Positions 28,702-50,792 of a DNA stretch of 59,816 bases are shown piece after piece. The position numbers were made by a program, and so were the translations under genes. The DNA is taken from contig JAPKCM010000027.1 in assembly GCA_028822935.1 (NCBI GenBank), positions 1-59,816 of the forward strand, in the 5' to 3' direction. The DNA comes from Akkermansiaceae bacterium. GTDB taxonomy: Bacteria > Verrucomicrobiota > Verrucomicrobiia > Verrucomicrobiales > Akkermansiaceae. Positions within the stretch are counted from its first letter, which is position 1, and each line of letters begins with the position of its first letter. The notes below the pieces were generated by a model. That model was not told the origin of the DNA and did no database searches. It worked only from the letters and a program-made list of their open reading frames with translations.

Positions 28702-28876
28702 TCCCTCACCATAGCTCCCTTCATTAAGACTAGACAAAAAGACTTCTCCTGGTTTTAAAAATAGACCAGATGGCACGTCCATAAAAGAACCACTCTTACC
28801 ACTCATGAAACCTTCTATAAAGGCAGAGCCAAATGATCGGTCAAATTCCTCGTAATTTAATCACAAAACCAGATTT

Positions 28877-30343
28877 TCACTCCGGCGGGAAGCTGTCGAG
28901 ATACCTCCATCGCCACTGCTTCCTAGCCTTATAATTGATCTTTCTTCCTTCCTCTTCCTGCAAAAGCCACTGCTTGACCATTTCTGTATCATTAAATGGA
29001 TCACCAACCTCTACTTGGCGCCGTTTCATTCGCGATTTGAGATCTCCCAAGACATCTTTATATTTTGGATCTCTTGATAAATTGATGAATTCATCCGGAT
29101 CCTTCCTCAAATCGTAGAGTTCAAACGTCGGTGGGTTCAAGTAAGTGGCATAGCTCGCCTTGACCGTTGAGGAACTCTCTTCGATCTCATCCATCGTAGA
29201 TCCGGCAATAAAGTGAGCATTATGCTGATGGAGATAAGCCTGCGCACTCCGATTCACTCCCTGGCCGGACGGCGTATAAATGAGTTTGTATTGCTCCGTT
29301 CTCAACGCCAACTGGAGACACCCGATCACAGGGGCCGATCCAGTCGCGACTGCCAATAAATCTTTTCTCCACTGAGCAGGGTCTTCTCCTCGTAAAAAAG
29401 GCCACAAGGACGCACCCGATTGCTTCTTGGGAGCCTCCACTCTCGCCGCCTCACAAATCGTCGGCAACAAGTCCACCACACTCGCCATTTCTTTCCGCAC
29501 CCCCACCCTCACCTGACCGGGCCAGCGAACGATCATTGGAATGCGTAATCCCGCATCATAGACACTCGTTTTCCCTCGCGAGAATTGAGCCCCGTGATCT
29601 CCAATATAAATAATAAGGGTGTTCTCTATTTTTCCCGCCTCTTCCAAATTCTGCAACAAATCACCCACCATCGAATCCAAACGATTCATACAATTGTAGT
29701 AGTTCGCCGTCGCCTCCCTCAGCCTCTTCGAGTCGCATCCCACCCAAGGCAGAGGCTTCACCTCTTTTCCTTTTAAAAGATCACCATCTTCAGGAAGTCC
29801 TCCCGTCTGTTTGATCAATGGAAAGTGAGCATCTGGATAGTTGATCGACAAGAAAAACGGCGCCTCACCGCCTTTAAAAAACTCAGACGCTTTTTCGGCA
29901 TAGGCCCTCAAATTTTTCCTCCCAAAATTCGCACCCGAGATCGCCCGAAAATCGATGTGCGGACGAAAGGCATTCTCTGGATTGACATGCAGCTTCCCAA
30001 TCAAACCCGTGCGATATCCCCCGGCCTTAAGAAGACTAAAGACATTCGGCCAGTCTTGATACATGGCATACTTGTGAGTCGCCAGGCCAAGTTGTCCGTT
30101 GATGGCAGGATCAAGTCCCGTGAGAAAACAAGCCCGGGATGGACTACAGACCGAGTAGGGCGTGAAGGCATTTTCAAAACGGCACCCTTCCTTCGCGAGC
30201 CCATCGAGCACCGGAGTCCTGGCATAGGGGTCTCCGTAGCACCCCAGCTCCGGACCATTGTCTTCCGAGACAATGAGCAAAATATTCGGACGCCCGCCGA
30301 AGACCGGCTGAAGCAGAATACCGCATACTAATAGGAATTTCAT
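28877..30343 (-). CDS. Secreted sulfatase, N-sulfoglucosamine sulfohydrolase-like
   Basis: 488-residue type I sulfatase. A short signal peptide (MKFLLVCGILLQPVFG) precedes IVSEDNGPELGCYG, in which SEDNGP replaces the common DD pair as in heparan N-sulfatase-like enzymes. The formylglycine motif is CSPSRACFLTG (Cys 66, Arg 70). GDHGAQFSRGKTSVYDAGLRIP is split here only to note the metal-binding DHG and the following Lys. The C-terminal YDLRKDPDEFINLS block is typical. Its ATG overlaps the sialidase stop by four bases (30340-30343), so it is the last gene of the esterase-sialidase-sulfatase operon and probably clears sulfated glycans that block sialidase or later steps. Confidence 0.92.
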   Translation of the reverse strand: MKFLLVCGILLQPVFGGRPNILLIVSEDNGPELGCYGDPYARTPVLDGLAKEGCRFENAFTPYSVCSPSRACFLTGLDPAINGQLGLATHKYAMYQDWPNVFSLLKAGGYRTGLIGKLHVNPENAFRPHIDFRAISGANFGRKNLRAYAEKASEFFKGGEAPFFLSINYPDAHFPLIKQTGGLPEDGDLLKGKEVKPLPWVGCDSKRLREATANYYNCMNRLDSMVGDLLQNLEEAGKIENTLIIYIGDHGAQFSRGKTSVYDAGLRIPMIVRWPGQVRVGVRKEMASVVDLLPTICEAARVEAPKKQSGASLWPFLRGEDPAQWRKDLLAVATGSAPVIGCLQLALRTEQYKLIYTPSGQGVNRSAQAYLHQHNAHFIAGSTMDEIEESSSTVKASYATYLNPPTFELYDLRKDPDEFINLSRDPKYKDVLGDLKSRMKRRQVEVGDPFNDTEMVKQWLLQEEEGRKINYKARKQWRWRYLDSFPPE

Positions 30344-32316
30344 TTTACGAGTTCACTTAGGGGGAAGCGTAGAAAATAGATCTCGGCAGGACCCTCATAG
30401 AGAACGCCCACGTAATCATCGCCAATTGGGGCAAGACAGGAGTAGCCACTGCCATTCCGCGCATCGTAAAGCGTATGCATCTCCTCCGGCCAAGTCATCC
30501 CCTCATCATCGGACATCTTGAGTGTCATATTGTATCGACCGCGTCGCGTGTTGGGATTTGAAAAGACGAAGCGTTCGCCTACTCGAAGCAAACTCGCCAT
30601 GCACACCGGCTCGTTGAGCCCCTTCCGATCAGTCGGATGAAGATCCCACGTTTTCCCTAAGTCTTTTGTGACTCCCACCGTCCGGGCTCCGCCACGGTTG
30701 TCGCGGCAATTCAGCATCAACGACCCGTCCTTGAGTTCAACAACCTGCGCCTCTGTCGTATTCGACTTGATTCCCGATCCAACCACCCACGTTTCCCCAT
30801 GATCCTTGCTGTATAAAATAGTAGAATAAGGAGTGCCAATTTTTCGTCCGTTCGCACGCTTGTTGCCATCCTGATACTGGGCCGCAAATACGATCGTGCC
30901 ATCCTTCATCGTGATCCCCGCACCTGGTCCCTGAAGCAGAAAATGCCATTCCGGCTTCTTGACCTGCTCTGTGATATTGATCGGCTTGGACCAATTCAGT
31001 CCATCATCATCGCTGTATGCCAACATCAACTGCCCGGTTTCCTCCGGCGTCATTCCCTGTCCCGATCCATGCCACGAGCGATTCCCGTGACTCCAGGTTC
31101 CAATAACCCAGATCCTCCCGTTCGTCTTGTCCACCAGGACTGCTGGATCGCCCACTCCGTCGTAGCGCCATTTGGGATCATTCCCCATGTCCATCACGAC
31201 CTTCATCTTATCCCACGTCTGGCCTCCGTCCGTGCTCCGACTCATCCCGACATCAATATCTCCCGGAAGATCTCCTCCAGTCCGATAGCGCACATCGTAT
31301 ACCCCGATCAACGTTCCCTTATTTGTCGTCGCCAAACCCGGGATCCGAAAAGCTTTCGATCCATCATCGCCATGCTGTCGCACTGCATATCCAATGCGCT
31401 GAGATACTGGAGGCGATGTCACTTCCGGTGTGATCACCTTACCCTCGGCAAACTTCACACCGAGCACCCGGCCATCTACTTTTCCATCGAGACTCGCAGA
31501 ATCATTCAACTCCACGGAAACCCAGAAAAAATTCTCGCCCCCCAGCAAAGTCGCCTCTCCTTCACAAATCCATTCTCCTCCCGTAAATTTTGCCTCACCA
31601 AAAAGTTCACCCGTTCCAGCCTTCATGTTTCCACCGGAATTGAGCACCCGCACGGCCTTCACCGCATCTGGATCACTCGTTCCCTTCAAATCAATCTTCA
31701 GAGCCTCAATCTTCAAAGCCTCCCCCCTCCCCTTTGTGGTCACCACCAATCCAAGAACCGGATTGTCCTTCTTTCGAATCAGGACCGGAATGACCGGCTG
31801 AATCGCGGTGATCTTTTCCACCACCATTGGCTGCACTTTCTCGATGACGAGATCATCGATCATCAAGCCCGTCTTAACTGGACTTGTCGCGCTGAAACGG
31901 ACCCGCTCAAGACCCGGCGGCAAAGGGATTTCCACCAAAGTTAAAAATCCACCCACTTTGATTCGCTTGTCATCATTGTAAATCTCCTCCCACTCACCAG
32001 CACCCTGGCCCTCAATACGAAAGGAAAACGGACCCCTGCTTGTCCAGCGCTCCGCCCAAAAGGAAAGGATCACCTTGTCTTTGATTTTCTCTCTAAGTTC
32101 GAGAACGACCTCCTGCTTCTCTCCCCCCATAAGACGAAGACTCCTCTTCCCGCCCTTCGTATGATCTCCGTTGATCTCCGCCTGCCCAGGTGCCGTCGAC
32201 CATGTTCCAAGCTTACTTTTTAATGAGTCAAAACCACCCACTTTGAAGGACTCGAAATCTTCTCCACCTGACAGCCAGGTTCCCGCTAAAAGTACCAATA
32301 AGGTCAATCGCTTCAT
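30340..32316 (-). CDS. Secreted exo-alpha-sialidase (GH33, BNR repeats)
   Basis: 658-residue sialidase from the ATG at 32316, preceded by AGGTGAC. Signal peptide MKRLTLLVLLAGTWLSGG; a jelly-roll-like N-terminal part (about 20-170) that may bind carbohydrate, a linker domain, and the six-bladed propeller from about residue 310. The catalytic arginine block is AFRIPGLATT (FRIP), and Asp boxes are SRSTDGGQTW, AYSDDDGLNW and YSKDHGETW. These are the hallmarks of GH33, which releases terminal sialic acids. The next gene overlaps by four bases. Preceded by an esterase gene that may remove O-acetyl groups first. Product would feed the lyase operon at 40-45 kb. Confidence 0.93.
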   Translation of the reverse strand: MKRLTLLVLLAGTWLSGGEDFESFKVGGFDSLKSKLGTWSTAPGQAEINGDHTKGGKRSLRLMGGEKQEVVLELREKIKDKVILSFWAERWTSRGPFSFRIEGQGAGEWEEIYNDDKRIKVGGFLTLVEIPLPPGLERVRFSATSPVKTGLMIDDLVIEKVQPMVVEKITAIQPVIPVLIRKKDNPVLGLVVTTKGRGEALKIEALKIDLKGTSDPDAVKAVRVLNSGGNMKAGTGELFGEAKFTGGEWICEGEATLLGGENFFWVSVELNDSASLDGKVDGRVLGVKFAEGKVITPEVTSPPVSQRIGYAVRQHGDDGSKAFRIPGLATTNKGTLIGVYDVRYRTGGDLPGDIDVGMSRSTDGGQTWDKMKVVMDMGNDPKWRYDGVGDPAVLVDKTNGRIWVIGTWSHGNRSWHGSGQGMTPEETGQLMLAYSDDDGLNWSKPINITEQVKKPEWHFLLQGPGAGITMKDGTIVFAAQYQDGNKRANGRKIGTPYSTILYSKDHGETWVVGSGIKSNTTEAQVVELKDGSLMLNCRDNRGGARTVGVTKDLGKTWDLHPTDRKGLNEPVCMASLLRVGERFVFSNPNTRRGRYNMTLKMSDDEGMTWPEEMHTLYDARNGSGYSCLAPIGDDYVGVLYEGPAEIYFLRFPLSELVK

Positions 32317-32383
32317 GTCACCTACAGTGACGCTCAATCTCGAAATTGCCTTTCACTTCTCAGCTGGTTTTTTTAGCCAACCA

Positions 32384-34996
32384 CTATGGCAAACTCACAC
32401 ACACACGGTAAAAACTCCGTGGTCCTGTCAAAGCCTCCCCAGTCAGCGTTAAGTCGCCGCCATTTCCAAGCACCGGTCCGTCAATGAGCATCCAAGGATC
32501 GGCGTTGCCTAGATCATCCGACTGATAGAGCCCGTAGTTTCTCCTTACCGAACTCTCTTTAAAGACTACCTGCGCTAGGCCGTCCGCCTCAACAATCGTT
32601 CTGGTCGAAACAAACGACATCGGATCAGTAGGATCAGTATCCGCCAAATACTCCTCTAAATTTCGATTCCGATCACCGTCTCCATCCTCACCCGGAAGCG
32701 CAGCGGTGAGATTTCCAAAATACTCAATCTCAAAGGCATCCGAAATCCCGTCTCCATCAACGTCCGCGCCGAGTGGTAAATAGCCATCGCTCTGATCATA
32801 GCAGATCGAGGCAATATCCACGCTATAGTTGTTGCCAAAGGAGCCACCTGTCCGATCTCCCAAGACGATTCGACTGTCAGCGCCCGCTAAATCGTAACTC
32901 GCCCCGTCCGTGGGAGTCAGCCTCACTCCGTCCCTCCATACGTGATATTTCGAAGCGCTGCTGTCATGCACAACGCGCCATTGATGAAATTCACCGTCGA
33001 GGTTGTTGTGCGCCACATTAAAATCTCCAGCCCCGTTGTCCTGAGTCCGGTCACCGAAAACATCGACAATGATTCGCTGAGATCCCGTGCCCAACCAGAT
33101 CGAGAAGCCAGATGGATTCACCTGAAATTTCATCTCAATCTCAAAGGTCCAGTCCCCATCATTCCCCGTGTTCCAAGTCGTCGTTCCACCATCCTTGCTC
33201 GAAGCGATTCCTTCCAACCACTCACCCGCGCCGTTGATGTGGGTTCGATTAAAAATCGTCCCCACCAGAGACTCCGTCGTTGCCGCTGCGCTGACTTCCG
33301 CCCATCCATTAATGAACTCGGCGCCATTGAAAATTTCGTTTCCCAAAAAACAGACCGCAAGATCTTTTCGCTCTGTCACTGGGAAAATTGTTTCGACTTC
33401 TACCAACTCTTCCGGAGACAACCCAAGGCCTTCCGCGATCCGCCTCGCCACGAAGATCTCACCTGTCGTATTCGGGTGCACCTCGTCGTGCGTCAACGCC
33501 ACCGGATCGAAGCCAGTAGAGGCATCGATCACCCACACCGCCGAGGTTGCTGATGCTCTATTCTTCGTGTCCGCCAAGGGCTGCAACAATCTGTTGAACG
33601 TATCCACGTTGACTTGGAGAACTGCTGTCTGATCAGTGTGCAGAAGGTAATTCAAGAAAATGCTCACATTCGTATTTGCTGCTCGGATTTGATCAATCAT
33701 CGTCGAAACATCGTTCCGCAATTGCGTAGGCGTTCCGCCGTCCGCTAGGTCGTTGATCCCAATCATGATTACCACGCTGTCTGGAACATAGATCGTCCCG
33801 GTGTTTCCCGATCCCGATGCGCCCGGATCCGGATAGGCCACAAAATTTCCCGATGAACTCAGTTCATACTGCGCCGCCTGCCCCGTCCAATTTAAGATCG
33901 TTCCCTCACCTCGGTTTCTACTTCTTCGATTCGACGGCAGAGGCACCCGACCATTCTCCCAAAAGGCCCTCCAACTAAAGTGGCCTTCATTCACGTTCAC
34001 AAAAACCTCGCCTTCATAGTCAGGAGTCGCTCCCGCGTTGTTCTGATAAGCGCCCGTGACAGAACCGGTGAAGGTGTAATTAGCATTTGAATCGACGAGA
34101 TGTTTGAAAAGCGCATAGCGAAAGCTGGGATAGCCCAAGCCTCCCTGCACGATCGAGTCGCCCATAAACACCAGCTTCCCATAGTTCGGGGTGACCACTT
34201 CGACCGCAAAGAATTCCTGCGCAAATCGTTTTCCGATTGTCAGCTTCGCCGCCTTATCAAAATGCAACCCGTCATAGAGCTGCCCTTGCAGATCTAAATT
34301 CTCGAAATAGCTGATCATCGGATCACCCGCTGCCAGCCCCGCTTGCTTCGCTCTCACTGCATTGCGATTCCCTCCCGCTGCTGCGATCCCACCCGCGACC
34401 GCGTGCATCGACGAGGCGTTCGTAAGATCTGTCCGGAGATTCGTAACCAGCTCCGAGAGCCGCACATCCGCAATCACGGCCTCCCCTCCGGAGTCACTCT
34501 CTCCCTGCACGTAGAGAAAGCCGATGATTTCAAAGGTATCTCCATTGGCCGTCAACAGAGCCGTCGCTGCGTCCACCGTATCTTTGACGTGGGCATACAT
34601 TTGACCGCTACCGCTCTTCGACCAATTTGAGTTCCCTCCCCCTCCTCGGCTTGCCTTGATAAGGCCAAAGTCTCTCACCCCCGCCCGATACAAAGTCCGC
34701 GCAAAGTTAATTTCCGGCCCCCAATGCGTTGCGCTCCCAGGATAGAATCCTCCCTGTTGGTCCTGTAAGGTCGTCCAAGCTCCACCAGAATCTCCGATCG
34801 AGTTCGAGGCATCCGCCACATTGTCCCAGAAGAACAGAACATGGTCATCCGCGGGATCACTCTCCGATGTCGGATCCGCCTCGCCACCCGCCGTTGTCCC
34901 CAACGAATTGGACTGCCCGGTCAACACAAATAGCTTGTAGTGCTTACCGCTCGCCACTGCGATTGACGCCAAATAAAGAAGAATCAGGACTCTCAC
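32384..34996 (-). CDS. Double SGNH esterase: sialate O-acetylesterase-like plus GDSL, with LamG-like tail
   Basis: 870-residue secreted protein with a GTG start at 34996 and a short signal peptide. Domain 1 (about 20-265) is of the sialate O-acetylesterase/SASA type: FVLTGQSNSLG with the nucleophile Ser (about 29), FLYVQGESDSGG and a DGLHF block. Domain 2 (about 270-525) is a second SGNH hydrolase: LVFMGDSIVQGGLGYP, MIGINDLADGG and DEVHPNTTGE. Residues 560-740 form a LamG-like sandwich (FHQWRVVHDSSASKYHVW), and a C-terminal DGDGISDAFE / LADTDPTDPM segment looks like a calcium-binding linker. It lies 67 bases upstream of the sialidase and likely acts with it by deacetylating sialic acids. Which domain has which substrate is unknown. 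Confidence 0.82.
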   Translation of the reverse strand: MRVLILLYLASIAVASGKHYKLFVLTGQSNSLGTTAGGEADPTSESDPADDHVLFFWDNVADASNSIGDSGGAWTTLQDQQGGFYPGSATHWGPEINFARTLYRAGVRDFGLIKASRGGGGNSNWSKSGSGQMYAHVKDTVDAATALLTANGDTFEIIGFLYVQGESDSGGEAVIADVRLSELVTNLRTDLTNASSMHAVAGGIAAAGGNRNAVRAKQAGLAAGDPMISYFENLDLQGQLYDGLHFDKAAKLTIGKRFAQEFFAVEVVTPNYGKLVFMGDSIVQGGLGYPSFRYALFKHLVDSNANYTFTGSVTGAYQNNAGATPDYEGEVFVNVNEGHFSWRAFWENGRVPLPSNRRSRNRGEGTILNWTGQAAQYELSSSGNFVAYPDPGASGSGNTGTIYVPDSVVIMIGINDLADGGTPTQLRNDVSTMIDQIRAANTNVSIFLNYLLHTDQTAVLQVNVDTFNRLLQPLADTKNRASATSAVWVIDASTGFDPVALTHDEVHPNTTGEIFVARRIAEGLGLSPEELVEVETIFPVTERKDLAVCFLGNEIFNGAEFINGWAEVSAAATTESLVGTIFNRTHINGAGEWLEGIASSKDGGTTTWNTGNDGDWTFEIEMKFQVNPSGFSIWLGTGSQRIIVDVFGDRTQDNGAGDFNVAHNNLDGEFHQWRVVHDSSASKYHVWRDGVRLTPTDGASYDLAGADSRIVLGDRTGGSFGNNYSVDIASICYDQSDGYLPLGADVDGDGISDAFEIEYFGNLTAALPGEDGDGDRNRNLEEYLADTDPTDPMSFVSTRTIVEADGLAQVVFKESSVRRNYGLYQSDDLGNADPWMLIDGPVLGNGGDLTLTGEALTGPRSFYRVCVSLP

Positions 34997-35213
34997 GAGC
35001 CCATTCTACTCCCCTTCTCCCCACTCATTGATCGATCATAGAACTGGTCTCTCTAACCCACCAGCCGTTCAGTTTCACCATTGCCGCAGCGCAAAGCGGC
35101 CGCTTGGATCATCGAGAGTTCAACCATTCTCCATGAGAAACAGCATCCTCCCGCAAAAGAACGAGCACTTTTTCGCTAATGTCTCTACCTCATCCCACGT
35201 AAGGTTATCCTCG

Positions 35214-38200
35214 ATGGCACTCTTCCGTCCCCATTTCATCCTGGCCCTTGCCACCCTCTCCGGCCTTGCCCAAGAGGTGCAAAACGACCTCGACCCCCTC
35301 CCGTCAATCGATCTCATCGCCCAGTGGACCTTCGATCAACCTGGTGCGGGCTCTCTGACAGGCAGTGCCAAAATCGAATCCAACTCTCTCATCCGCCCAG
35401 AATACCCTACCTTTCCGGCAAAAAACAAGTCCCTCGTCCTCCCCGAACATCCCGCAGCCTGGCGCATCCGCGAGTCAGATCTCCCCGTTCCCTCTTCGCT
35501 CCGCTTTACGAATGGCGAATCCATTACCATTGAAGCTTGGGTTTCCCTCAATTCCATCTCCTCGAATTCCTTCGCCTACCTCATTGGCAAGGGACGGAAC
35601 AGGAGCAAAACCTTCACTCCTGATAACCAAAACTGGGCACTCCGCCTCAAAGGAGATAAAGGATACGCTCTCCCCACTTTCCTCTTCCGCTCCGCCGGCG
35701 ATCAGTCGGCCTACCATCGCTGGACGGCATCCGAAGGCCTCGACGCCGATGGCGCCTGGCACCATCTCGCCCTCTCCTACACCTTCGGGAAACCCGACTC
35801 CATCGTCGCCTACATCGATGGCACCCGCATCACTCAAGGGAGCTGGGATCTGGGCGGAAAAACAACCCTTCCTCCAGTCTCCGACGCCGACGACATCATA
35901 ATCGGGACCGGCAATGGTGGTTCCGCCTCAAACCAACTCAATGGGGTCCTCGATCAAATCACGATCTACCGCGAGCACCTCTCCAAGGAACTCCTCATCT
36001 CACGGTATCAACATCTCGCTCCGCCCTCGGCCATCGATCCCAATAAGATTCCAACGGACACCGTCCTCGTCGAGATCTGCGAGCAGGGAGTCCCCGGTGG
36101 AAAGACCTGGCCCAAGCAAGACCCCCGCGCCAGCGAATCGTTCACCCTCCCCCATTTCGCCCTCCCTTCACTTCCCTTTCGCTACGTCGCCACCGGAATC
36201 CGAGGCGATCGCAAGCAGCCCTTCCTCCTTCGTGCCACTTCAAAAGTGACCCTCCCCGCCGGAACCCACCGCTTCCTCCTCCGGGGGAGAAACTCCGCCC
36301 GCCTCGTCATCGACAACAAGAGGATCATTCAAACAGGTTTCACCCCATCCTCCGAAGGAGCCCTAGGATATACCACAGACCAAGACGACTTCCTCAATCC
36401 CGGAGACCCCCACTTCCGCTTCGTCACTCCAGGCAATGAAGAAGGCCTCGCCACCTTCACCACCAAAGGAGGACAACACCTCATCTCCATTCAGCAACTC
36501 ATCGGAAGCGGCGGCAATCGCCCCGAACCCGGTGAATTCGTCGTCGCCCTTTCCCTCGAAGGTTCCTCCGACTGGCACGTCCTCACTTCGACCGCCTCAC
36601 CCCTCGCCTACACCGACGAAACTTTCCCCACCTTCAAAAAGGAACACACTCTCTGGGTAAAACAAACCAACCTCGAGCGCCGCACTGCTCTCTTGAGAAA
36701 ACACGCCCCCTACTGGATCAAGCGCCGCGAAGCCGCTCAATCTTATCTCGCTTCGCTTGAAACAATCGTTCTTCCGGCAGCAACTGGAGGTCTTCCGGCA
36801 AACAATCCCATCGACCATTTTTTGAACGCCCGAATCCAAAAAGCTTCGTCTCAAATCAAAGAACACAAACCCGGACAGATTCACTTCTACAAACAAGTCC
36901 TTCCCATTCTCAAAGCGAAATGCTTCTCCTGCCACCAGGGCGAAAAAACAAAGGGCGATCTCGATCTCTCCAGTCTCGCCTCGGCCCTCGAAGGGGGCGA
37001 ATTCGACGGCCCGGCCATCACCACCGGACATCCTGAAAAGAGCGCGCTCTTCGCACGCATCACCAGCGGCGACGAAGACGAACGCATGCCGCCAAAAGGC
37101 GACCTCGTCACACCGGAAGAGCAAGCCCTCATCAAGGGATGGATCACCGAAGGGTCGCATTGGCCGGAGTTCGATGTCGCCCGCATTCATCTCACCGAAC
37201 AAACCGACGATCTTACCTTCCTTCGCCGCGTCTCACTCGACACCATCGGTCTCCCGCCCTCGCTCATAGAAATCCAGAACTTCCTCTCTAATAAATCTCC
37301 TGATCGCCGCGCCAAGGAGGTTGACCGACTCCTCGCCGACCCACGCTGGGCCGACAACTGGATGGGCTACTGGCAGGACATCCTCGCCGAGAATCCCAAC
37401 ATTCTCAACCCAACTCTCAACAACACCGGCCCCTTCCGTTGGTGGCTTTACGAGTCCCTCCTCGATGACAAGCCGCTCGATCTTATGGTCACCGAACTCA
37501 TCCGCATGCAAGGCAGTCAAAAACTCGGCGGCCCGGCCGGTTTCGGACTTGCCTCACAAAACGATGTCCCCATGGCCGCGAAAGGTCTCGTCCTCAGCTC
37601 GGCATTTTTGGGAGTAGAAATGAAGTGCGCTCGCTGCCACGACGCCCCTTCCCACAAGTCCCTTCAAAAGGACCTCTTCGAACTCGCCGCTCTCCTCAAT
37701 CGCGAACCAATCACGGTGCCCAAGACCAGCAGCGTCTCGCTCGAAAGCCTCAGCAAAGGAGGACGCAAACCCTTAATCGAAGTCACTCTCAAGCCCGGAT
37801 CCAAGGTCGCGCCAGCCTGGCCCTTCAAAGAGTTCATCAACCCCGACATCGGCCATCAACTCGCGGAAAACCCATCCGACACCCGCGACCTCCTCGCGGC
37901 ACTCATCACCGCACCACAAAACGAACGCTTCGCTCAGGTCATGGCCAACCGTCTCTGGCAACAAATCATGGGCCGCGGCCTTGTCAAAGCACCCGGGGAT
38001 TGGGAAAAATCCGCTCCCGGTCATCCACCCCTCCTCCGTTGGTTGGGTCACGAACTTGTGCGCAGCAACTACAGCCTGAAACACCTCGCCCGACTCATCC
38101 TCAACTCACACGCCTACCAACGTGCCAATGATCATTCCCTCAAGGAAACATCCCCTCTCTTTACCTCGCCAGTTCCACGCCGACTACGAGCCGAACAAAT

Positions 38201-38900
38201 TGTCGACTCCCTCTTCCACGCCACCGGGAAACCTTTCCGCACCGAAGAAATGAACATCGATATCGATGGCCGACGTCCCCTCACTAGCAGCATCTCTCTT
38301 GGTCAACCGCGCCGCGCCTGGATGCTCGCCAGCCTTTCCAACGAACGGGATCGCCTCAGCCTGACCTTGCCCCGCGTGCAAGCCGTTTCGGATGTCCTTT
38401 CGGCCTTCGGTTGGACCGCCAGCCGGCAATCCTCGACCAGCTCCCGCAGCACCGATCCCAGCGCTCTGCAACCCGCCATCCTTTCCAACGGCACGATGAG
38501 CATCTGGCTCACGCGTCTCTCCGACGACCATGCTCTCACTGACTTTTCATTAAAGGATCAATCACTCGACACCTTCCTCGAACAACTCTTCCTGAAACTT
38601 CTCACCCGCAAACCCACGGCTGGGGAACTGAAACTCTACCGTGCCCATCTCTCCCCCGGCTATCAATCGCGCATTGTCGAAACCAGCCTAACGCCTCCTC
38701 TCAAAAAGATCCGCCCGCCCCGCTACGTCTCCTGGTATAACCATCTCGATCCCATCGCTGACGAAATCCGCCGCAAGGAAATCATCGCCGCACGCGCTGG
38801 TGACCCACCCACCAAACGTCTCGACCCAGCCTGGCGCGAGCGTTTTGAAGACCTCCTCTGGTCCATCGTCAATTCGCCCGAATGGATCTACACCCCATAA
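35214..38900 (+). CDS. PSD1-type cytochrome c/LamG protein (DUF1549-DUF1553)
   Basis: 1228-residue exported protein; start ATG 35214 gives the signal peptide [20 protein letters not shown], unlike the longer frame from 35028. The order is LamG-like (about 30-265), a PA14-like part (about 275-470), a planctomycete-type cytochrome c domain with CFSCHQG (570-576) and a later MPPKGDL, then DUF1549 (DFL-type [23 protein letters not shown], and a second CXXCH, CARCH, at 805-809), and DUF1553 ([30 protein letters not shown]). Common in Planctomycetes and Verrucomicrobia. It forms a pair with the DUF1501 gene 11 bases later. The function is unestablished; redox or surface roles are speculative. Confidence 0.9.
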
Positions 38901-38911
38901 CTCTCACTGAC

Positions 38912-40168
38912 ATGAATCGCCGCCACTTTCTCCAAACTTCATCGCTTGCTGCGCTCTCAACCCAAGCCTCCGCAAAAGCGGATGCCCCGAAAGGAAAAGC
39001 CGAACACTGCATCCTCATCTGGCTCGGTGGCGGCATGTCGCAAGTCGATACCTTTGACCCTAAAAAACAAGGCAGCTCCAAAATGCCCTTCGTCGCCGGC
39101 TCGGACTACCCCTCCATCGAGACAGCCGTTCGCGGAGTAAAAATCTCCGAGCATTTGTCAAAAACAGCCCGCTTCATGGACCGCATCACGGCGGTCCGTT
39201 CAATTAGCCATCAACTCATCGACGAGCACGCGCTTGCGTCCAACTTCGTGCACACCGGACGTCCCATCAGCGGATCCACCACCTATCCCTCGATCGGTTC
39301 TATCATTACCCAGCAACGGGGCTCGGCCAATCCCGATGTCCCCGCCTACATGCTCATCGGCTTTCCAAATGTCAGCCGCGGCCCCGGATTTCTAGGGGCT
39401 CAACACGGCAATATTTACCTCACCGATCTCAAGTCCGGACCCGCCGGATTCACCCGTCCGGATTTCCTCACCAACGAACGCATTGCAACCCGCAAGAGGC
39501 TCCTCAAACCGCTTCAGGACCGAATCCCCGCAGACTCCGTTTTGGCCGACTACGAGAGGGCCCAAACCGAAGCCCTCCGTCTCGCCGGACCGAGCTTCAT
39601 GAAAAATTTCAATCTCAGCTCCGAGCCCGCCGATCTTCGGAACTCCTATCAAAGCGAATTCGGTCAACGCTGCCTCCTCGCCCGTCGCTTGGTTCAGGAC
39701 GGCGTCCGCTTTGTCGAACTCTCCCACAACCCGGGCTTCATCAACGGCACCGGTTGGGACACCCACGGCAAAGGACAACTTAAACAACACGCACTCATTC
39801 AAGACCTCGACAACGGCCTCGCCACCCTCATGGGCGATCTCGAAGAAAAGGGCCTCCTCGACAAAACCCTCATTGTCCTCGCCACCGAATTCGGACGCCC
39901 ACCCGAGTTCGACGGAAATGGCGGCCGCGGCCATCAAGGCTCGGCATTCTCGCTCGTCCTCGCCGGAGGTGGTCTAAATCATCAAGGCGCTTTCGGTTCC
40001 ACCGACAAGCTCTCTAAAAAAGTCGTCGAAAATCCGGTTTCCATTCCCGACTTCCACGCCACGATTCATGCCGCCCTGGGAATCAATCCCCACCACGAAC
40101 TCATGGACGGCACCCGCCCCGTCCCCATCACTGATGGAGGCACTCCCATCGCAACTCTCTTTTCCTAA
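38912..40168 (+). CDS. DUF1501 protein, Tat-exported sulfatase-fold partner of PSD1
   Basis: 418-residue protein starting at ATG 38912 with a twin-arginine signal [16 protein letters not shown]. The body has the DUF1501 pattern: [18 protein letters not shown], then [21 protein letters not shown] and [17 protein letters not shown], consistent with an alkaline phosphatase/sulfatase-like fold. DUF1501 genes nearly always follow a PSD1 gene, as here. Activity unknown. The pair lies on the plus strand between two minus-strand sialic acid operons and ends 21 bases from the convergent epimerase gene. Confidence 0.92.
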
Positions 40169-40189
40169 GGAAATCATCACCGACCATCC

Positions 40190-41383
40190 CTACGTTTTAT
40201 CTACACCTGCTGAGTCCAGCAACTGCCAGCAATACCACTGCATCCGCGGCAAATGAAATGGCCCTTTGAATTGATTCCCTTTCAAAGGCGACGAGACGCC
40301 ACCATCGCGATACAAATACCCAAACCACTCCCCATGCTCCCGGTCACAAAATTTTTCATGAGCATAGTCATGAATCATCCGATGCCACTTGGCATACTTT
40401 TCCTCCCCCGTTAATTGATACGCCAGCAGGGTCGCAATGATCGCCTCGCACTGAGGCCACCAGAATTTCATGTCATGCCAGTATTCTTGCACCGGCTTGT
40501 CGTAGACATCCTTGAAATAAAGGATTCCTCCGTGCTCCTCGTCCCACCCGCGTTTCCACATGTAGTCGAGCATGCGACATCCGAGGTCGATCAGCTCCGG
40601 ATCATTCCCCCGCCGCTTTGCTTCATCTAAAATAAACCACGCTCCCTCAATCGCGTGTCCCGGATTTAAGGTGCGCGCATCAATGTGATCCACTACTTCC
40701 CCGTCCATCCCGATCTGCTCCATGACACACTCGATGTCATCCTTCACGAACTCACGGATCTCTCCAATAAACTCATCGATCTTACGCTCCGCCAAGGCAT
40801 CACCTCCATTGGCCACCAAGACCTGGGCCACTTGCAAAAAGATCATGGGCACGCCGATTCCCTTCGTCTGCCTTTCTTCTGTCCACTTCGCTTCGCCCGT
40901 CGCCACACTCCCGTCGGCGTAGTCCATGCATCGCGCAAAAAGTTCTCGAGCTTCGCTCAGCCAAGCAACTTCCCCCGATGCCTTTCCATAAGCCGCATAA
41001 GCCATCACCGTAAAAGCCTCTGAGAAAAAATACCGTCGCTTCCTGAGTGGTTTCCCTTCCCGGGTCACCAAGAAGAACATCCGACCGTCTTCATCGAAAC
41101 AATTGTCTCTCAGAAACTCGACCCCACTCTTTGCTGCCGCTAGCCACTCCGGCCGCTTCTCAACCGTGTTACAAAGAGTCGATAACATCCACGCAAAGCG
41201 CCCCTGCAACCACACCGACTTATCATCGTCGATCAGAGTTCCATCTTGGTCCCTCATCGACAGATAGCCGCCATATTCCTGATCCACGATCTCCGGCATC
41301 CAAAAACCCAGCGTGTCATCCAAAAGACTCGAGCGATAAAAATCCCGCAAGCCCTCAAGTTCTTCTTTGCTATATCCACTCAT
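40190..41383 (-). CDS. N-acylglucosamine 2-epimerase (AGE/RenBP type)
   Basis: 397-residue alpha/alpha-barrel enzyme that interconverts ManNAc and GlcNAc. Family blocks with the catalytic histidines are present: NPGHAIEGAWFILDEA and FKGPFHLPRMQW. SVWLQGRFAWMLSTL and the WWPQCEA block also match. Start chosen at 41383 because the ATG overlaps the upstream stop in TGATG; ATG at 41401 is an alternative. It is the last gene of the lyase-transporter-epimerase operon, so it would turn ManNAc from sialic acid cleavage into GlcNAc, as in the Bacteroides-type pathway, in place of NanK/NanE. A GlcNAc kinase is not in the window. Confidence 0.93.
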   Translation of the reverse strand: MSGYSKEELEGLRDFYRSSLLDDTLGFWMPEIVDQEYGGYLSMRDQDGTLIDDDKSVWLQGRFAWMLSTLCNTVEKRPEWLAAAKSGVEFLRDNCFDEDGRMFFLVTREGKPLRKRRYFFSEAFTVMAYAAYGKASGEVAWLSEARELFARCMDYADGSVATGEAKWTEERQTKGIGVPMIFLQVAQVLVANGGDALAERKIDEFIGEIREFVKDDIECVMEQIGMDGEVVDHIDARTLNPGHAIEGAWFILDEAKRRGNDPELIDLGCRMLDYMWKRGWDEEHGGILYFKDVYDKPVQEYWHDMKFWWPQCEAIIATLLAYQLTGEEKYAKWHRMIHDYAHEKFCDREHGEWFGYLYRDGGVSSPLKGNQFKGPFHLPRMQWYCWQLLDSAGVDKT

Positions 41384-44001
41384 CACTTTTTCAGGGTCCA
41401 AACCGTCAGTCCGGCCACTTCCTCATCGGACGCCCGCATCACAAATCCCAAAATCAAGCCCGATAACAAGGTCGCGAAAAAGCCCACGGCTCCGTAGAGC
41501 AAGGGCATCAGATCAATCACGCCCGCTTCGTTCAAAAAGTAGACCGTCACCACTGTCACCACCCCACAGATCAAGGCCAAGAGCCCCGCTTTCCCATTGG
41601 GTCGCCTCGAAAAGATCCCTAGAGCAAACAAACCACCCAAGGGCCCCAGCGCAAAACCAATGAAGCGGTTGAACAACATGAACACTTCATCCGTTTTGAT
41701 CATCGCTAGGTAACTCGAGACTCCGATTCCAATCAATCCCAGGATGATCACGACCCACTTCGCCACCCCAAGCCGCTGCGCGTCGTTGCTTTGCGGCTTC
41801 AACAACCTTCCATAAACATCCGTCACAAAAGCCGTCGCCACCGAGTTGAGCGAGCTGGAAATCGTCGACTGCGCCGCCGCAAAAACGCCCGCAATAATCA
41901 GACCCGCCACTCCCATCGGCAAATTCTGCATGATGAAAAAGGGCAACACGCTATCCTTCGCCGGAAGCGCCGGGTCCATCAACTCAGGCTGATCTTGATA
42001 AAAGACAAAGAGGGCCGTTCCCAAGCCGAAGAAAATCGCCGACCCGATGAGCACCATCCCGATATTCATCCACAAGGCGCGCGCCGCATCCTTCTCCGAA
42101 GGCGTCGTGACATAACGCTGCACCACATCCTGCCCCGAAGTGTAAGAAGGCAAGTTCGCCATCATGAACGCCACAAACAAAACAAAGCCCGAAGTCGATC
42201 CCTTCGCGATCGAAAGATCTCCAAAACTCCAGCTTGCCGTGATCCCTTTTCCCTGCTCACTCATCGCTGATCCGACCGCGCTAATCCCACCGTCCACCTG
42301 CGAAACAATCAGTCCAAAACACAACAGCGCTCCGCCAATCAAGACTAAGGCCTGAATCGCATCGGTCCACACCACCGCTTCGATTCCACCCATCACGGTG
42401 TAAATCACGCACAACACTCCGATCACCGCGATCGCGGCAAAGATATTAATATCCGTGACGCTCGATAAGGCCAACGCCGGGAGATAAAGCACAATCGCCA
42501 CCCGCCCCACGTGAAAGAGCATGAAGGTAATGCTCCCAATCACGCGGGTCGCCACGTTAAATCGTTTTTCAAGATATTCGTAGGCCGTCGTGATATTAAG
42601 CCGACGATAAAACGGCAGGTAAAACATCACCACCAAGGGTACGATAATCAAGATAGGCCACTGCCCGATGTAGCCATTCCAATTTGTGGCATAAGCGGTT
42701 CCTGGCACCGCCATAAAGGTGATCGCCGACAGCATCGTCGCAAAAATCGAAAGTCCCGCCACCCAGAAGGGAACGCGCTGACCACCTCTAAAATACGCAT
42801 CGGTCGTCGAAGCCGACTCCCGCTTCATGAACCAATATCCGATGCCCACCATCCCCAATAAATAGACTGCCACGACCACCCAATTCACCACCCCAAAGTC
42901 CAACTTCGAGCCACCCACCTCTGCGATCAACACCTGTGGCGACCGAACTCCCGGCTTAATTTCCCCGGTCGGAATGATCACCTTTCCATTCCACAAAACC
43001 ACCGGAGTCGTCACCGGAGCGAAGGTCCCCTCAAGCGGCAAACTCCCCGCCTCCGCCCAGCGATCCGTCACGGTATTATAAGACAGAATCGCTCCAGGAA
43101 ATCCCGGATGCTCCATTCCCTGACCGTCGATCTCCGGTCGTGCCGCTACCTGCTCCGCTAAAAAAGGAACCGTAACCCCACCCAACATCAAAAAAGAACT
43201 CGCCCCCGCCGGCACCGCCATCGAGGGAGCCGCCGATCTCGCCTCAGGCATATCCGCGAGCCGCTTCCACTGCCCGGAAGAGACATTCAGCTCCCAAGCA
43301 TCCTTAAGAAAATCCAAACCAAAAATACGATCCTCTTTCTCCTCCTCCGAATCCGCATTATCCCGTCCGCCAAAGAGGTAAAACGTCCCACCCTTCACTC
43401 CGCCTACAGCATACATCCTGCCTCGTGCCCCTTCAGGCCAACCCAAAGTTTCCCACTCCGATTCATCATTCATCGAGTAAAACTCCCTGATCGTCTCATC
43501 TCCATTCGTTCCTGCCCCGACAATGAGTGTCCCATCAACTACCGCAGCAAGTCCTTCAGCAAGTGGAACAGGAAGAGACGGCGCCCTCCCTACGATCACC
43601 TCGCCATTCTCGACCTTCACCTGATAACTCTCCCTCAGGCACCCCGAGTCATTCTTACCCCCCATGAACCAGCACGAGCCATCATCCAGGCTCGCCGACA
43701 TCCCGTAACCTACTGCCTGCGGCAGCGTCGCCGCCGATTTCTCCCACTCCCCACCCTCCTTCAGCGGCAGGACGTAAATATCATCGTAATAGATCTTCTT
43801 CCCATCTTCCCACGGCCGCCCGTCAGGGAAATTCGCCCCACCGGCTACCACCAAAAAGTCCTCCCCATTCTCCGAGACTACTCCAGAAAAGGCGCCCGCA
43901 AAACCTTCCCGATCAGGAAGATCAGGCAAACGATCCCATTCCAAAGCACCCCATGCCGAGGCCAAACCCAGAAACCAGACAACTAACAGTCTTGTGATCA
44001 T
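41383..44001 (-). CDS. Fusion of NanM-like kelch mutarotase and sodium:solute symporter
   Basis: 872-residue protein. Signal peptide (to about 18), then a six-bladed kelch propeller (20-365; LVVAGGANFPDG, CWFMGGKND, LFGGRDNADSEEEKED) like N-acetylneuraminate mutarotase NanM / cyclically permuted mutarotases. From about 370 it continues into a full SSS transporter of about 13 helices (NWVVVAVYLLGMVGIGYWFM, SGQDVVQRYV, LIIAGVFAAAQSTISSSLNS). Sodium-driven sialic acid transporters belong to this family. So one chain would equilibrate the anomer of released sialic acid outside and import it. Start overlaps the lyase stop by four bases; the epimerase start overlaps its stop. Confidence 0.9.
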   Translation of the reverse strand: MITRLLVVWFLGLASAWGALEWDRLPDLPDREGFAGAFSGVVSENGEDFLVVAGGANFPDGRPWEDGKKIYYDDIYVLPLKEGGEWEKSAATLPQAVGYGMSASLDDGSCWFMGGKNDSGCLRESYQVKVENGEVIVGRAPSLPVPLAEGLAAVVDGTLIVGAGTNGDETIREFYSMNDESEWETLGWPEGARGRMYAVGGVKGGTFYLFGGRDNADSEEEKEDRIFGLDFLKDAWELNVSSGQWKRLADMPEARSAAPSMAVPAGASSFLMLGGVTVPFLAEQVAARPEIDGQGMEHPGFPGAILSYNTVTDRWAEAGSLPLEGTFAPVTTPVVLWNGKVIIPTGEIKPGVRSPQVLIAEVGGSKLDFGVVNWVVVAVYLLGMVGIGYWFMKRESASTTDAYFRGGQRVPFWVAGLSIFATMLSAITFMAVPGTAYATNWNGYIGQWPILIIVPLVVMFYLPFYRRLNITTAYEYLEKRFNVATRVIGSITFMLFHVGRVAIVLYLPALALSSVTDINIFAAIAVIGVLCVIYTVMGGIEAVVWTDAIQALVLIGGALLCFGLIVSQVDGGISAVGSAMSEQGKGITASWSFGDLSIAKGSTSGFVLFVAFMMANLPSYTSGQDVVQRYVTTPSEKDAARALWMNIGMVLIGSAIFFGLGTALFVFYQDQPELMDPALPAKDSVLPFFIMQNLPMGVAGLIIAGVFAAAQSTISSSLNSVATAFVTDVYGRLLKPQSNDAQRLGVAKWVVIILGLIGIGVSSYLAMIKTDEVFMLFNRFIGFALGPLGGLFALGIFSRRPNGKAGLLALICGVVTVVTVYFLNEAGVIDLMPLLYGAVGFFATLLSGLILGFVMRASDEEVAGLTVWTLKK

Positions 44002-44915
44002 GCCGAGACACTGACGTCCTGACCCACCCAGTCAAACCATCCCATTTCCTCCAAGCTCTTGCGCAAGGCCGCAACCTGCTCTGGAGCCGCCGGATCAATC
44101 GGACGACGCACCGGACCACAATCAATCCCCACCATCGACATCATCACCTTCAGCGAAGCCCGACCACAGGTTCCAAACATCGCCGCAATCATCTCCAGCG
44201 CACGCGATTGCCAGAGCCGGGCCTCTTCAAAATCACCCGCTTCAACCGCTACCCTCACTCGATCATAAATCGGAGCAGCATAATTATAGGTACTTCCCAC
44301 CGCTGCCTTAAAACCTTGCGCTACCGACATCAGATAGGCCTCATCCGATCCCGCAAGAAACTCCAAGCCAGGCCCCACCTTTTCCAGCAGCGGCAGATTA
44401 TGGAGACTCCCGCCATCGGAATACTTAATTCCGCAAAACGTGGGCAAGCGATCCATCGCTCGATCCGTCAGTTTCATCGGATCAAGAGTGACGCCCGACA
44501 AAAAAGGAATGTGATAGTAATAAAAAGGCGTCTTGGGTGCCGCCTCGACAATCGGAAGAAGCCCCTCCACCAACGCCTCTTCACCACTGACTTTGAAATA
44601 ACCCGTGGGTGTCGCCGAAACAGCATCAGCTCCGATCGATTCAGCATGTCCGGCCAGCTCAGCCGACGCCTTCAAGCTATTATGTCCCACCTGAACAAAA
44701 GTTCTCATCCTACCCTTCGCCGACGTCACATAAGCTTCCGCCACGGCTCTCCGTTCCTCATCGGTCAGGGACATCCCCTCACCCGTGCTTCCTGCAATGT
44801 AGATTCCTGTGATTCCCTTCGACTCAAGATGATCCACCACCTTGGGAACGATCCCCACATTTAACTCTCCATGCTCATCCATCGGCGACACAACAGCCGC
44901 CACCAATCCACTCAT
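43998..44915 (-). CDS. nanA: N-acetylneuraminate lyase (DapA superfamily)
   Basis: 305-residue cytoplasmic class I aldolase that cleaves Neu5Ac to ManNAc and pyruvate. Motifs: AGSTGEGMSL (41-50), the carboxylate-binding loop; FYYYHIPF with the catalytic Tyr at about 134; CGIKYSDGG with the Schiff-base Lys at 164. The YYYHIP and IKYSD forms agree with lyases rather than dihydrodipicolinate synthases. I chose ATG 44915 because GGAG sits nine bases before it; ATG 44930 is possible and the frame is open to 45038. First gene of the operon with the mutarotase-symporter and epimerase, divergent from the regulator. Confidence 0.92.
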   Translation of the reverse strand: MSGLVAAVVSPMDEHGELNVGIVPKVVDHLESKGITGIYIAGSTGEGMSLTDEERRAVAEAYVTSAKGRMRTFVQVGHNSLKASAELAGHAESIGADAVSATPTGYFKVSGEEALVEGLLPIVEAAPKTPFYYYHIPFLSGVTLDPMKLTDRAMDRLPTFCGIKYSDGGSLHNLPLLEKVGPGLEFLAGSDEAYLMSVAQGFKAAVGSTYNYAAPIYDRVRVAVEAGDFEEARLWQSRALEMIAAMFGTCGRASLKVMMSMVGIDCGPVRRPIDPAAPEQVAALRKSLEEMGWFDWVGQDVSVSA

Positions 44916-44987
44916 TTTTAAAGGCTCCATTTCAATAACGTTGCCCAAGTATCTCCACCGGAACAAGAACAGAGCTTGAAATTCCTT

Positions 44988-45025
44988 GGTATGATGGACC
45001 AACCAGTTAGCATACCCATCATGCC
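44988..45025. promoter_or_regulatory. Palindromic operator candidate between lyase operon and regulator
   Basis: GGTATGATGG (44988-44997) and CCATCATGCC (45016-45025) form an inverted repeat with 9 of 10 pairs and 18 bases between arms. Nested in it is GGTATG...CATACC. It lies 73 bases before the lyase start and overlaps the 5' end of the GntR-type regulator gene, the usual place for an autoregulated divergent control site. Confidence 0.5.
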
Positions 45026-46097
45026 TCGGATTCCCCACCGTCAGCCTCTCCCTATTCAGGCCGCCGACATCATTCTCGAAATGATTTCCTCCGGAGATAT
45101 CCAGGACCTCCTGCCCGGAGAACGCTCCCTGTCCTCGCAGCTGCAGATCGGCCGCGACACTTTACGGGCGGCACTGGAAATCCTGGAAGCCGATGGTGTC
45201 GTCTCCCCCCGTGAGCACGGAAAAAGGCGTAGAATTCTCTCCTCTGCAGCCAGGCAATCCAGAGCCACCAAACGCATCGCCTTTCTCTCGCCCAAGACCC
45301 TGGTCCAACTTCCCCCATGGATGCTCGTCGAATTCGATACCCTGCGTGAGCTTCTCAACCAGCGCGGCTACCTCCTTCAATTAGTCACCCCCGGACTTTT
45401 CCACCTCAAGAATCCCACCAGCAAACTTGATTCCTTGCTCAAGGACATTGAAGCCGACGCCTGGATTCTCTATCAGTGCACCTCTCCCGTGCAGGAGTGG
45501 TTTGACGAACAAAAAATTCCAGCCCTGATCAGAGGCTATCCACAACCTGATATCCAAATCCCCTTCATCGATGAGGACTGGGAAGCGGCCGCCTTTCATG
45601 CCGGGACGCTCTTAAAACGAAACGGCCATCGCCGCGTCGGACTTCTCATCCCCGACACCAACCTCGCTGGACTGAGGGCAACCGAGGTCGGCTTGCGCAA
45701 AGCCTTTCCTGAAACCGAAGGACTTGACCCCATCGTCTCCATGATCGAAAAAGGCACGACTGAAAGCGTCACCCGTTTACTCGCAAGAACCCTCCGACTT
45801 CAAGAGCCCCCCACTGCAATTATCGCCACTCGATCGAGACAGGCCCTCACCATCCTATCCTGGATGGCACAGGAAAACCTCAGCATCCCAAAAGATCTCT
45901 CGCTCATCACCCTCGCTTCCGAGCCTTGGTATGAACACCTCTTTCCCAGCCTGTCTCACTACTTCTCCGATCCCACTATTCTCGCTCGAACAGTTCTCCG
46001 CCACATCCTTCCCATCTCAGAAGGAAAAGCGTCCAGCTCGACTAAAAAACTTCTCATCCCCGAATACGTGCCCGGATTAACCGTCAGCTCCGTTTAA
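45021..46097 (+). CDS. GntR-HTH / LacI-type sensor transcriptional regulator
   Basis: 358-residue regulator. Residues 10-75 form a GntR-type winged helix (ADIILEMISSGDIQDLLPGE, LRAALEILEADGVV, PREHGKRRRI). The rest is a periplasmic-binding-type sensor of the LacI/GalR kind (RVGLLIPDTNLAGLRATEVG, PKDLSLITLASE), close to the family found in Planctomycetes/Verrucomicrobia sugar loci. Starts at ATG 45021 or 44991 are both plausible and neither has a strong ribosome binding site; I give the one that leaves the palindrome mostly outside the gene. It is divergent from the lyase operon, so control of sialic acid genes by sialic acid or an amino sugar is inferred. Confidence 0.85.
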   Translation: MPRIPHRQPLPIQAADIILEMISSGDIQDLLPGERSLSSQLQIGRDTLRAALEILEADGVVSPREHGKRRRILSSAARQSRATKRIAFLSPKTLVQLPPWMLVEFDTLRELLNQRGYLLQLVTPGLFHLKNPTSKLDSLLKDIEADAWILYQCTSPVQEWFDEQKIPALIRGYPQPDIQIPFIDEDWEAAAFHAGTLLKRNGHRRVGLLIPDTNLAGLRATEVGLRKAFPETEGLDPIVSMIEKGTTESVTRLLARTLRLQEPPTAIIATRSRQALTILSWMAQENLSIPKDLSLITLASEPWYEHLFPSLSHYFSDPTILARTVLRHILPISEGKASSSTKKLLIPEYVPGLTVSSV

Positions 46098-50703: not shown

Positions 50704-50708
50704 TTCTC

Positions 50709-50749: not shown

Positions 50750-50792
50750 AAGAATAAAGAACGAACCCACCTACGATCTTGAAGAGCGATTA

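Follow-up and report, generated by a model that had tools for sequence, protein, structure and literature searches.

A putative sialoglycan-use regulon under a divergent AraR-type regulator, with a mutarotase–symporter fusion, in an Akkermansiaceae genome

We analyzed contig JAPKCM010000027.1 of an Akkermansiaceae bacterium (the window, which is the entire contig of 59,816 bases from a 4.59-Mb genome that is 96.1% complete) and find that it probably carries a sialoglycan-use regulon under a divergently transcribed AraR-type regulator. Two gene sets, one for an esterase, a sialidase, and a sulfatase and the other for a lyase, a mutarotase–symporter fusion, and an epimerase, are accompanied by copies of a 21-bp palindrome, CTGGT-N11-ACCAG, found by comparing the intergenic DNA of the window and its relatives. 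Because both sets share the palindrome, and because the palindrome is tied to the orthologous regulator, both operons most likely belong to the regulon of this one regulator. A wider reading, advanced tentatively and at slightly less than an even chance, is that of an undescribed Akkermansiaceae-wide regulon, in which the AraR-type regulator, acting at CTGGT-N11-ACCAG, would couple sulfatases, an O-acetylesterase, a sialidase, CotH/lamin-tail surface proteins, and PSD1/DUF1501 proteins to sialic acid import by a mutarotase–symporter fusion that would convert the anomer at the mouth of the transporter.

Gene layout of the locus

Gene families were assigned by Pfam, NCBIfam, and PDB sequence comparison, and relatives were drawn from a phylum sample of 387 genomes, the window's own included. 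Relatives are coded G (genomes) and L (loci); f1 denotes same-family relatives and g2 one genus, presumably Akkermansia. All genes named in the original prediction, which had been made from the sequence of the window, were recovered at the positions given there, with family matches far above chance (Pfam, PDB):

28877–30343, minus strand: S1 sulfatase with a CSPSR motif (Pfam Sulfatase); 4-bp overlap with the sialidase gene
30340–32316, minus strand: GH33 exo-sialidase, N-terminal module plus BNR_assoc_N (Pfam, PDB 9db6); longest open reading frame (ORF) to 32337
32384–34996, minus strand: two-domain esterase, SASA (residues 21–262) plus GDSL/SGNH (275–520), with a C-terminal tail (Pfam, PDB)
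35133–38900, plus strand: PSCyt1/PSCyt2/PSD1 planctomycete-type cytochrome protein (Pfam); longest ORF from 35028; divergent from the esterase
38882–40168, plus strand: DUF1501 protein, PSD1 partner (Pfam)
40190–41401, minus strand: AGE/NanE-II-type N-acylglucosamine 2-epimerase (Pfam GlcNAc_2-epim, PDB 8bry)
41383–44001, minus strand: NanM-type mutarotase, circularly permuted (residues 1–362), plus SSF symporter (363–872) (Pfam NANM and SSF, PDB 5nv9)
43998–44930, minus strand: N-acetylneuraminate lyase, NanL/NanA-type (Pfam DHDPS, PDB 6arh); longest ORF to 45038
45021–46097, plus strand: AraR-type regulator, GntR winged helix plus LacI-like Peripla_BP_3 sensor (Pfam); longest ORF from 44976

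The locus had been described as two operons of overlapping genes. Both gene sets are present, and the sulfatase and sialidase, lyase and fusion, and fusion and epimerase genes do overlap, but the esterase and sialidase genes do not: the esterase gene ends at 32384 and the longest sialidase ORF starts at 32337, with a palindrome in between, so that the "two operons" would have at least three putative promoters. The divergent regulator was placed correctly, its GntR plus Peripla_BP_3 gene standing head to head with the lyase gene. The longest lyase (43998–45038) and regulator (44976–46097) ORFs overlap; the lyase gene probably starts at 44930 or 44915 and the regulator gene at 45021.

A palindrome precedes both gene sets in the window

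The regulator combines PF00392 and PF13377, that is, the GntR helix-turn-helix and LacI/GalR-like C-terminal domain of the AraR subfamily. A matrix trained on 41 relaxed sites from regions of seven relatives (including three false sites in SASA coding sequence) ranked, as its top seven in the window, 44986, 32364, 35044, 28749, 10381, 8832, and 18702:

44986–45006: TTGGTATGATGGACCAACCAG, putative operator between lyase and regulator; the window's top score
35044–35064: CTGGTCTCTCTAACCCACCAG, between the esterase and PSD1 genes, 48 bp ahead of the esterase start
32364–32384: CTGGTTTTTTTAGCCAACCAC, in front of the sialidase gene, 48 bp from its likely start at 32316
28749–28769: CTGGTTTTAAAAATAGACCAG, in front of the Fn3-like surface protein gene, 48 bp from its likely start at 28701
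18702–18722: CTGGCTTGCTCACCGGACCAG, weaker (score 13.6), in front of the first CotH gene at a distance of 45 bp
10381–10401: CTGGTCTCCTCTCCATACCAA, in front of a DUF455 gene, 52 bp from its likely start at 10453
8832–8852: CTGGTCCCTCCACCAAACCAA, between two divergent sulfatase genes, 46 bp ahead of the likely start (8786) of the one on the minus strand

Seven window sites score 12 or more, where 100 shuffles gave 0.77 on average; the score of the CotH site, CTGGCTTGCTCACCGGACCAG, is near the shuffles' mean best score of 12.5. The distance from site to likely start is 45–52 bp in six of the seven and 56 or 71 bp for the lyase site. If each start is set at the signal peptide or family start, all seven sites are non-coding, and one shares a single base with a stop codon; with the longest ORFs instead, four (8832, 28749, 35044, and 44986) fall in 5′ extensions. 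The N11 spacing occurred 5 times in the window, versus 0 or 1 at 24 other spacings, and 11 times in the relatives (3 of them the WYQGE artefact described below), versus at most 6 at other spacings; the form C[CT]GGT..ACC[AG]G gave 16 at N11 in the relatives and at most 8 elsewhere.

Across the whole genome, YTGGT-N11-ACCAR occurs 17 times (11 for a reversed-pattern control), and 5 of these sites lie in the window, which makes up 1.3% of the DNA (binomial 2e-6). The 12 sites outside the window are taken as chance occurrences: 11 lie inside ORFs of at least 80 aa, and the remaining one (L101) is, on translation, a broken WYQSETN stretch. Apparent operators within SASA-type genes were rejected, the conserved WYQGETN stretch spelling CTGGTATCAGGGCGAGACCAA, which matches the pattern; translation confirmed this artefact at G319 13277, G215 9680, and G307 24024 and in L097, L154, L158, L160, and L163. 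The three artefacts in the training set of the first matrix were excluded from the later matrix used below.

The palindrome accompanies orthologous regulators

A regulator-alignment scan of a genome-contig collection, which reports solely stretches matching two peptide patterns (81 stretches, 32 relatives), yielded 32 loci, all verrucomicrobial by title. The palindrome core lies 33–105 bp before the matched regulator start in 25 of the 32, in the strict form TGGT-N11-ACCA in 19. In L155, L161, and L162, it precedes the NanM gene of a same-strand run ending in the regulator, and in L160 it precedes the lyase and epimerase genes, which an opposite-strand ORF separates from the regulator. Other spacings from 3 to 21 were found at no more than 5 of the 32 regulators, and in the 29 orthologue loci 38 of 79 N11 core sites stood near the starts of sialic-locus genes, against 0–4 of 25–54 sites for six control spacings.

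These counts bear on whether the palindrome could be the site of a different regulator that adjoins by chance. Published GntR sites have GT and AC close together, the consensus printed in PMC4494728 giving a gap of 2–3 bases in the FadR form and 4 in the HutC form, so that the 11-base gap is unusual, and the pairing of regulator and site is itself predicted from sequence. Such a coincidence is nevertheless unlikely: the core occurs with the orthologous regulator (at least 34% identity), or with the nan genes ahead of it, in 29/29 loci, and in 27/27 outside training (L159 and L153 are contigs of the training genomes G277 and G215), whereas it is upstream of 0/3 distant paralogues (L164–L166, 27–29% identity). 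The loci are not all independent, L139–L143 being close relatives and L149 and L167 sharing an identical site. No paper on the regulator or its site was found in the open-access literature, which is not proof of absence.

Synteny joins the two gene sets

In five genomes of the same family (G277, G319, G307, G215, and G251), a regulator 37–42% identical to that of the window occurs with NanM and a sialidase in all five and, within the stretches taken, with the lyase in four (not G277, whose lyase match is on another contig), the epimerase in four (not G307), and the SASA esterase in four (not G251, whose 20-kb stretch has a sialidase and no SASA). A single locus holds sialidase, SASA esterase, mutarotase, and regulator in G277, G319, G215, G307, and L149. 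A full sialidase directly adjoins the regulator in L139, L142, L143, and L145, and an adjoining sialidase is cut by the contig end in L137 and L141. In L140, a 72-residue sialidase remnant (9282–9497), possibly a gene loss, occupies the position at which near relatives have the full gene.

Two independent neighboring gene sets, a nan operon with its own regulator and an esterase–sialidase–sulfatase set run separately, would account for the two plus-strand genes of PSD1/DUF1501 type that separate the halves of the locus, and for the g2 genomes G021, G027, G033, and G111, in which the sialidases and the lyase are more than 100 kb apart or on different contigs. We regard this arrangement as improbable, since the same palindrome precedes both sets and the one-locus and sialidase–regulator arrangements recur in the relatives just listed.

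A lyase and AGE-type epimerase route

The best PDB match of the lyase is 6arh (E 2.4e-53), and N-acetylneuraminate lyases rank ahead of DHDPS entries. Aligned with its PDB matches, the protein retains K, YYYHIP, G-x-DE, and GSTYN motifs, which (catalytic Lys, Tyr, GxDE) we take to be the N-acetylneuraminate lyase signature; a stronger DHDPS-family match elsewhere in the genome is the better DapA candidate. Lyase homologues occur in 166/387 phylum-sample genomes at 1e-20. The AGE/RnBP-type epimerase gene adjoins the fusion gene of the lyase operon, and its product best matches 8bry (E 2.4e-176). That the locus is of the epimerase rather than the NanK/NanE type held up: in the 96.1% complete genome, NanE (N-acetylmannosamine-6-phosphate epimerase) had no match over the Pfam cut-off and one partial match at 23.1 bits against 27.

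Elsewhere in the genome, nagA (284 bits, cut-off 225.65) and nagB (247 bits, cut-off 236.9) are present, whereas for the N-acetylglucosamine (GlcNAc) kinase expected with them there are candidates at the level of the ROK family, with mixed best models below cut-off. ROK (PF00480) matches fall at four places, three of them strong. Of two ROK proteins tested, both below cut-offs, one is fructokinase-like and the other glucokinase/amino-sugar-kinase-like, nearest the ROK glucokinase and N-acetylmannosamine/N-acetylglucosamine kinase models. With nagA, nagB, and ROK present and NanE not over its cut-off, the NanL/NanE-II route is complete on paper, and the sequence supports a locus that would encode sialic acid use by a lyase and an AGE-type epimerase. 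The original prediction of a full route from sulfated, O-acetylated sialoglycans to GlcNAc is supported in part, by lyase, epimerase, nagA, nagB, and synteny, and its sulfated or O-acetylated sialoglycan substrate is putative. One survey reports that the GlcNAc pathway was not found in its single verrucomicrobial genome (PMC5583593), in contrast to the nagA and nagB seen here. A second nagA-like and nagB-like pair lies at a contig end (G000:C28:48056-50780), with one TGA inside the nagB-like match.

The mutarotase–symporter fusion

The kelch half of the fusion matched PF24996 over the Pfam cut-off and TIGR03547 and TIGR03548 below cut-off, in split matches. YjhT-type models matched in swapped pieces and a cyclically permuted model matched end to end; the kelch half is therefore circularly permuted. 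We predict that this mutarotase domain is periplasmic. The SSF half best matches 5nv9, Proteus mirabilis SiaT (E 1.6e-119), from which the protein differs in its fused N-terminal kelch domain. Relative to the SiaT residues given in PMC5931594, the symporter keeps S60, T63, G81, Q82, R135, and D182 (residue mapping) and N247, S342, S345, and S346 (alignment read by eye), and with them carboxylate contacts S60, T63, and R135, Na3 residues D182, S345, and S346, and Na2 residue S342.

Matches to the fusion protein occur in 112/387 genomes at 1e-60, many through the symporter half alone; a hand count of full-span fusions (match from query residue ≤60 to ≥800) gave 31/387. In G215, G251, and G307, NanM is a separate gene, with no SSF match in the stretch taken. 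We found no published description of a mutarotase–symporter fusion in the open-access literature, which does not prove that none exists.

Esterase, sialidase, and sulfatases

The sialidase matches 9db6 and 4bbw at E of about 1e-123 (9db6, 6.7e-124) and shares with them FRIPGL, TTEAQVVE, and GYSCL; the GH33 hallmarks (FRIP Arg, Asp boxes, Glu, and Tyr), whose catalytic roles we presume, are all present. It is the sole match in the genome at 1e-60, and 43/387 phylum-sample genomes have matches. Esterase homologues are fused to a sialidase in G319 (C1, L066/L067) and G215 (C58, L071/L072), where a protein of ~1,917 aa comprises SASA, GDSL, a second SASA-like stretch, and a GH33 sialidase domain. 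Tannerella NanS is a two-domain esterase, for which we found no support in the open-access literature. An esterase–sialidase fusion is known in Bifidobacterium bifidum (PMC10017367).

The sulfatase at 28877–30343 has a Sulfatase domain and the formylglycine motif C/S-x-P-x-R, present as CSPSR, as in family S1. Its nearest structures are about equal (SGSH, 4mhx; exo-L-galactose-6-sulfatase, 7lha; and an S1_8A sulfatase), and those of the sulfatase at 7305–8786 are 6hhm and iduronate-2-sulfatase; these do not settle the substrate of either. Matches to the operon sulfatase occur in 22/387 genomes at 1e-55. In the close relative L137, a 41% identical homologue stands 6 kb away from the regulator; the L137 contig has two sulfatase matches and begins inside the sialidase adjoining the regulator. 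Homologues also adjoin nan-type genes in two other verrucomicrobial families, represented by G158 (43–45% identical, near lyase and fusion) and G289 (C47, L126 8950–18459). In G289, a tight run of sulfatase, sulfatase, sialidase-like, and sulfatase genes adjoins a GntR regulator (29%) and a kelch–symporter fusion; the palindrome recurs there, at the regulator and ahead of the first sulfatase gene. Within the window, the sulfatase at 7305–8786 has a palindrome upstream. The proposal that a sulfatase inside the operon points to a sulfated substrate gains from these neighbors and from the palindrome, but the gene is not constant in f1 loci. Sulfate removal as part of the same program is plausible, and the linkage would add support to a sulfated sialoglycan as the substrate.

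Observations that weigh against the regulon, and an alternative substrate

Several observations speak against a sialoglycan-use regulon. In the window, the highest shuffled score, 19.8, exceeds every site except the best. In the relatives, 6 of the 25 upstream sites (L139–L143 and L146) score low on the matrix and hold the core alone. Genome scans of 11 relatives with YTGGTY-N9-RACCAR, a pattern so narrow that it misses the lyase sites in L158, L160, and L163, gave no clear excess over the reversed control in six of seven genomes outside g2 (for example, 14 versus 12 in G319, 8 versus 8 in G215, and 4 versus 12 in G277; in G307 the counts were 17 versus 10). The g2 genomes G021, G033, G111, and G220 had 12, 5, 6, and 8 sites versus 2, 0, 2, and 1, and among the matches listed no g2 site lies at the sialidases or lyase by coordinate. 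With counts near control in most genomes outside g2 and the g2 excess away from the sialidases and lyase, a genome-wide regulon in relatives could not be drawn, and the link holds at the level of the locus alone.

Among the proteins, the operon sulfatase had no tblastn match in the loci fetched from f1 relatives, and the lyase, epimerase (348 bits against an equivalog cut-off of 600), and mutarotase all fall under NCBIfam equivalog or subfamily cut-offs. The symporter carries the SiaT changes T58M, F78G, and Q250S, and S343 is replaced by T. The G289 genome has no lyase match at 1e-20, so a kelch–symporter fusion need not mean use of N-acetylneuraminic acid (Neu5Ac); its locus is possibly a different nonulosonate or sulfated sugar system.

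The scores below NCBIfam cut-offs and the three changed SiaT contacts would also suit a pathway whose substrate is not Neu5Ac but a different nonulosonic acid, such as Kdn or a keto-deoxy sugar of bacterial or algal origin. To this we assign a low probability: the epimerase is of the 2-acylaminosugar type, which argues for an N-acyl-mannosamine product, the GH33 protein matches sialidases of Bacteroides type (as we assume of their source organisms), and a SASA esterase is present.

Proposed mechanism

For the sialoglycan-use regulon, we infer the following course from the gene families. Outside the cell or in the periplasm, the SASA/GDSL esterase would strip O-acetyl groups and the sulfatases would strip sulfate, and the GH33 sialidase would release α-sialic acid. 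The kelch domain, on the periplasmic face of the symporter, would convert the α- to the β-anomer, which the SiaT-like domain would import with Na+. An intracellular lyase would then yield pyruvate and N-acetylmannosamine (ManNAc), the AGE epimerase would convert the latter to GlcNAc, and the ROK kinase, NagA, and NagB would complete the route. The regulator is expected to sit on the 21-bp palindrome before its own gene and each unit, and may be released by sialic acid or its product.

Relation to known systems

The transporter of Bacteroides fragilis is NanT, of the major facilitator superfamily. Its NanL/NanE-II/RokA pathway includes a lyase that, like that of the window, is outside the E. 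coli clade, an AGE epimerase acting on free ManNAc, and a GlcNAc kinase (PMC10017367), whereas here an SSF symporter is fused to the mutarotase, the regulator is AraR-type, and sulfatases belong to the putative regulon. The NanE-II pathway has been predicted for Akkermansia muciniphila (PMC5583593). Two metagenome-assembled genomes (MAGs) labeled as that species (L158 and L160), together with L163, have lyase and epimerase with the orthologous regulator and, before the lyase, the palindrome, as in the window, and L160 also has a divergent SASA esterase; unlike the window, these loci (21 kb in L158 and L160) gave no match at 1e-8 to the mutarotase or the symporter. This agrees with the reported failure of A. 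muciniphila to consume the Neu5Ac that it liberates (PMC10017367).

Bacillus subtilis AraR likewise joins a GntR winged helix to a GalR/LacI-type sensor (PMC4494728), whereas the protein described here occurs in Verrucomicrobia with nan genes and a widely spaced palindrome. The E. coli NanR sialoregulon is likewise one of a single regulator over catabolic, mutarotase, and esterase genes (PMC3658417), but NanR is a GntR-type protein that binds a GGTATA repeat operator (PMC8012715). NanA was noted in Verrucomicrobia in 2009 (PMC2693436). The lyase and NanE-II pathway are thus known, and what is new is the putative regulatory layer and the unusual transporter. The candidate regulator–operator pair is testable and common to many Akkermansiaceae, including the two A. 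muciniphila-labeled MAGs, and the regulon could tie CotH, Fn3-like, and PSD1/DUF1501 proteins and sulfatases of unknown role to one nutrient. The Akkermansia loci that lack a transporter or mutarotase match offer a simple lead to why A. muciniphila frees sialic acid but does not eat it, and with the fusion, the periplasmic role of NanM can be tested directly.

Further putative members of the regulon

The functional unit seems to extend beyond 28877–46097, to about 7300. The genes concerned are:

26410–28701, minus strand: secreted Fn3-like surface protein (Fn3-like via its L140 homologue); 28701 is the likely start
18767–22552, plus strand: lamin-tail plus CotH protein 1; 56–60% identical homologues in L140, L142, and L145
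22562–26362, plus strand: lamin-tail plus CotH protein 2
7305–8786, minus strand: S1 sulfatase, one of a divergent sulfatase pair; 8786 is the likely start

Judged by its palindromes, the regulon may comprise the lyase operon, the esterase, the sialidase–sulfatase pair, the Fn3-like protein, the two CotH proteins (weakest site), DUF455, and one sulfatase, and perhaps, via the esterase site, the divergent PSD1/DUF1501 genes. A palindrome also precedes the L140 homologue of the first CotH gene. The protein at 26410–28701 has no Pfam match over cut-off, and its predicted structure has a mean pLDDT of 45, being confident at residues about 250–450 alone; homologues lie near the regulator in L140 and L145. 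FG-GAP and UnbV/ASPIC secreted proteins at 12897–17616, whose genes lack a strong palindrome in the window, have 69% identical homologues near the regulator in L137. Rfam at gathering cut-offs matched a tRNA alone. Just past the locus, at 47539–52549 and without a palindrome, is a second PSD1/DUF1501 pair, assigned by similarity to the first.

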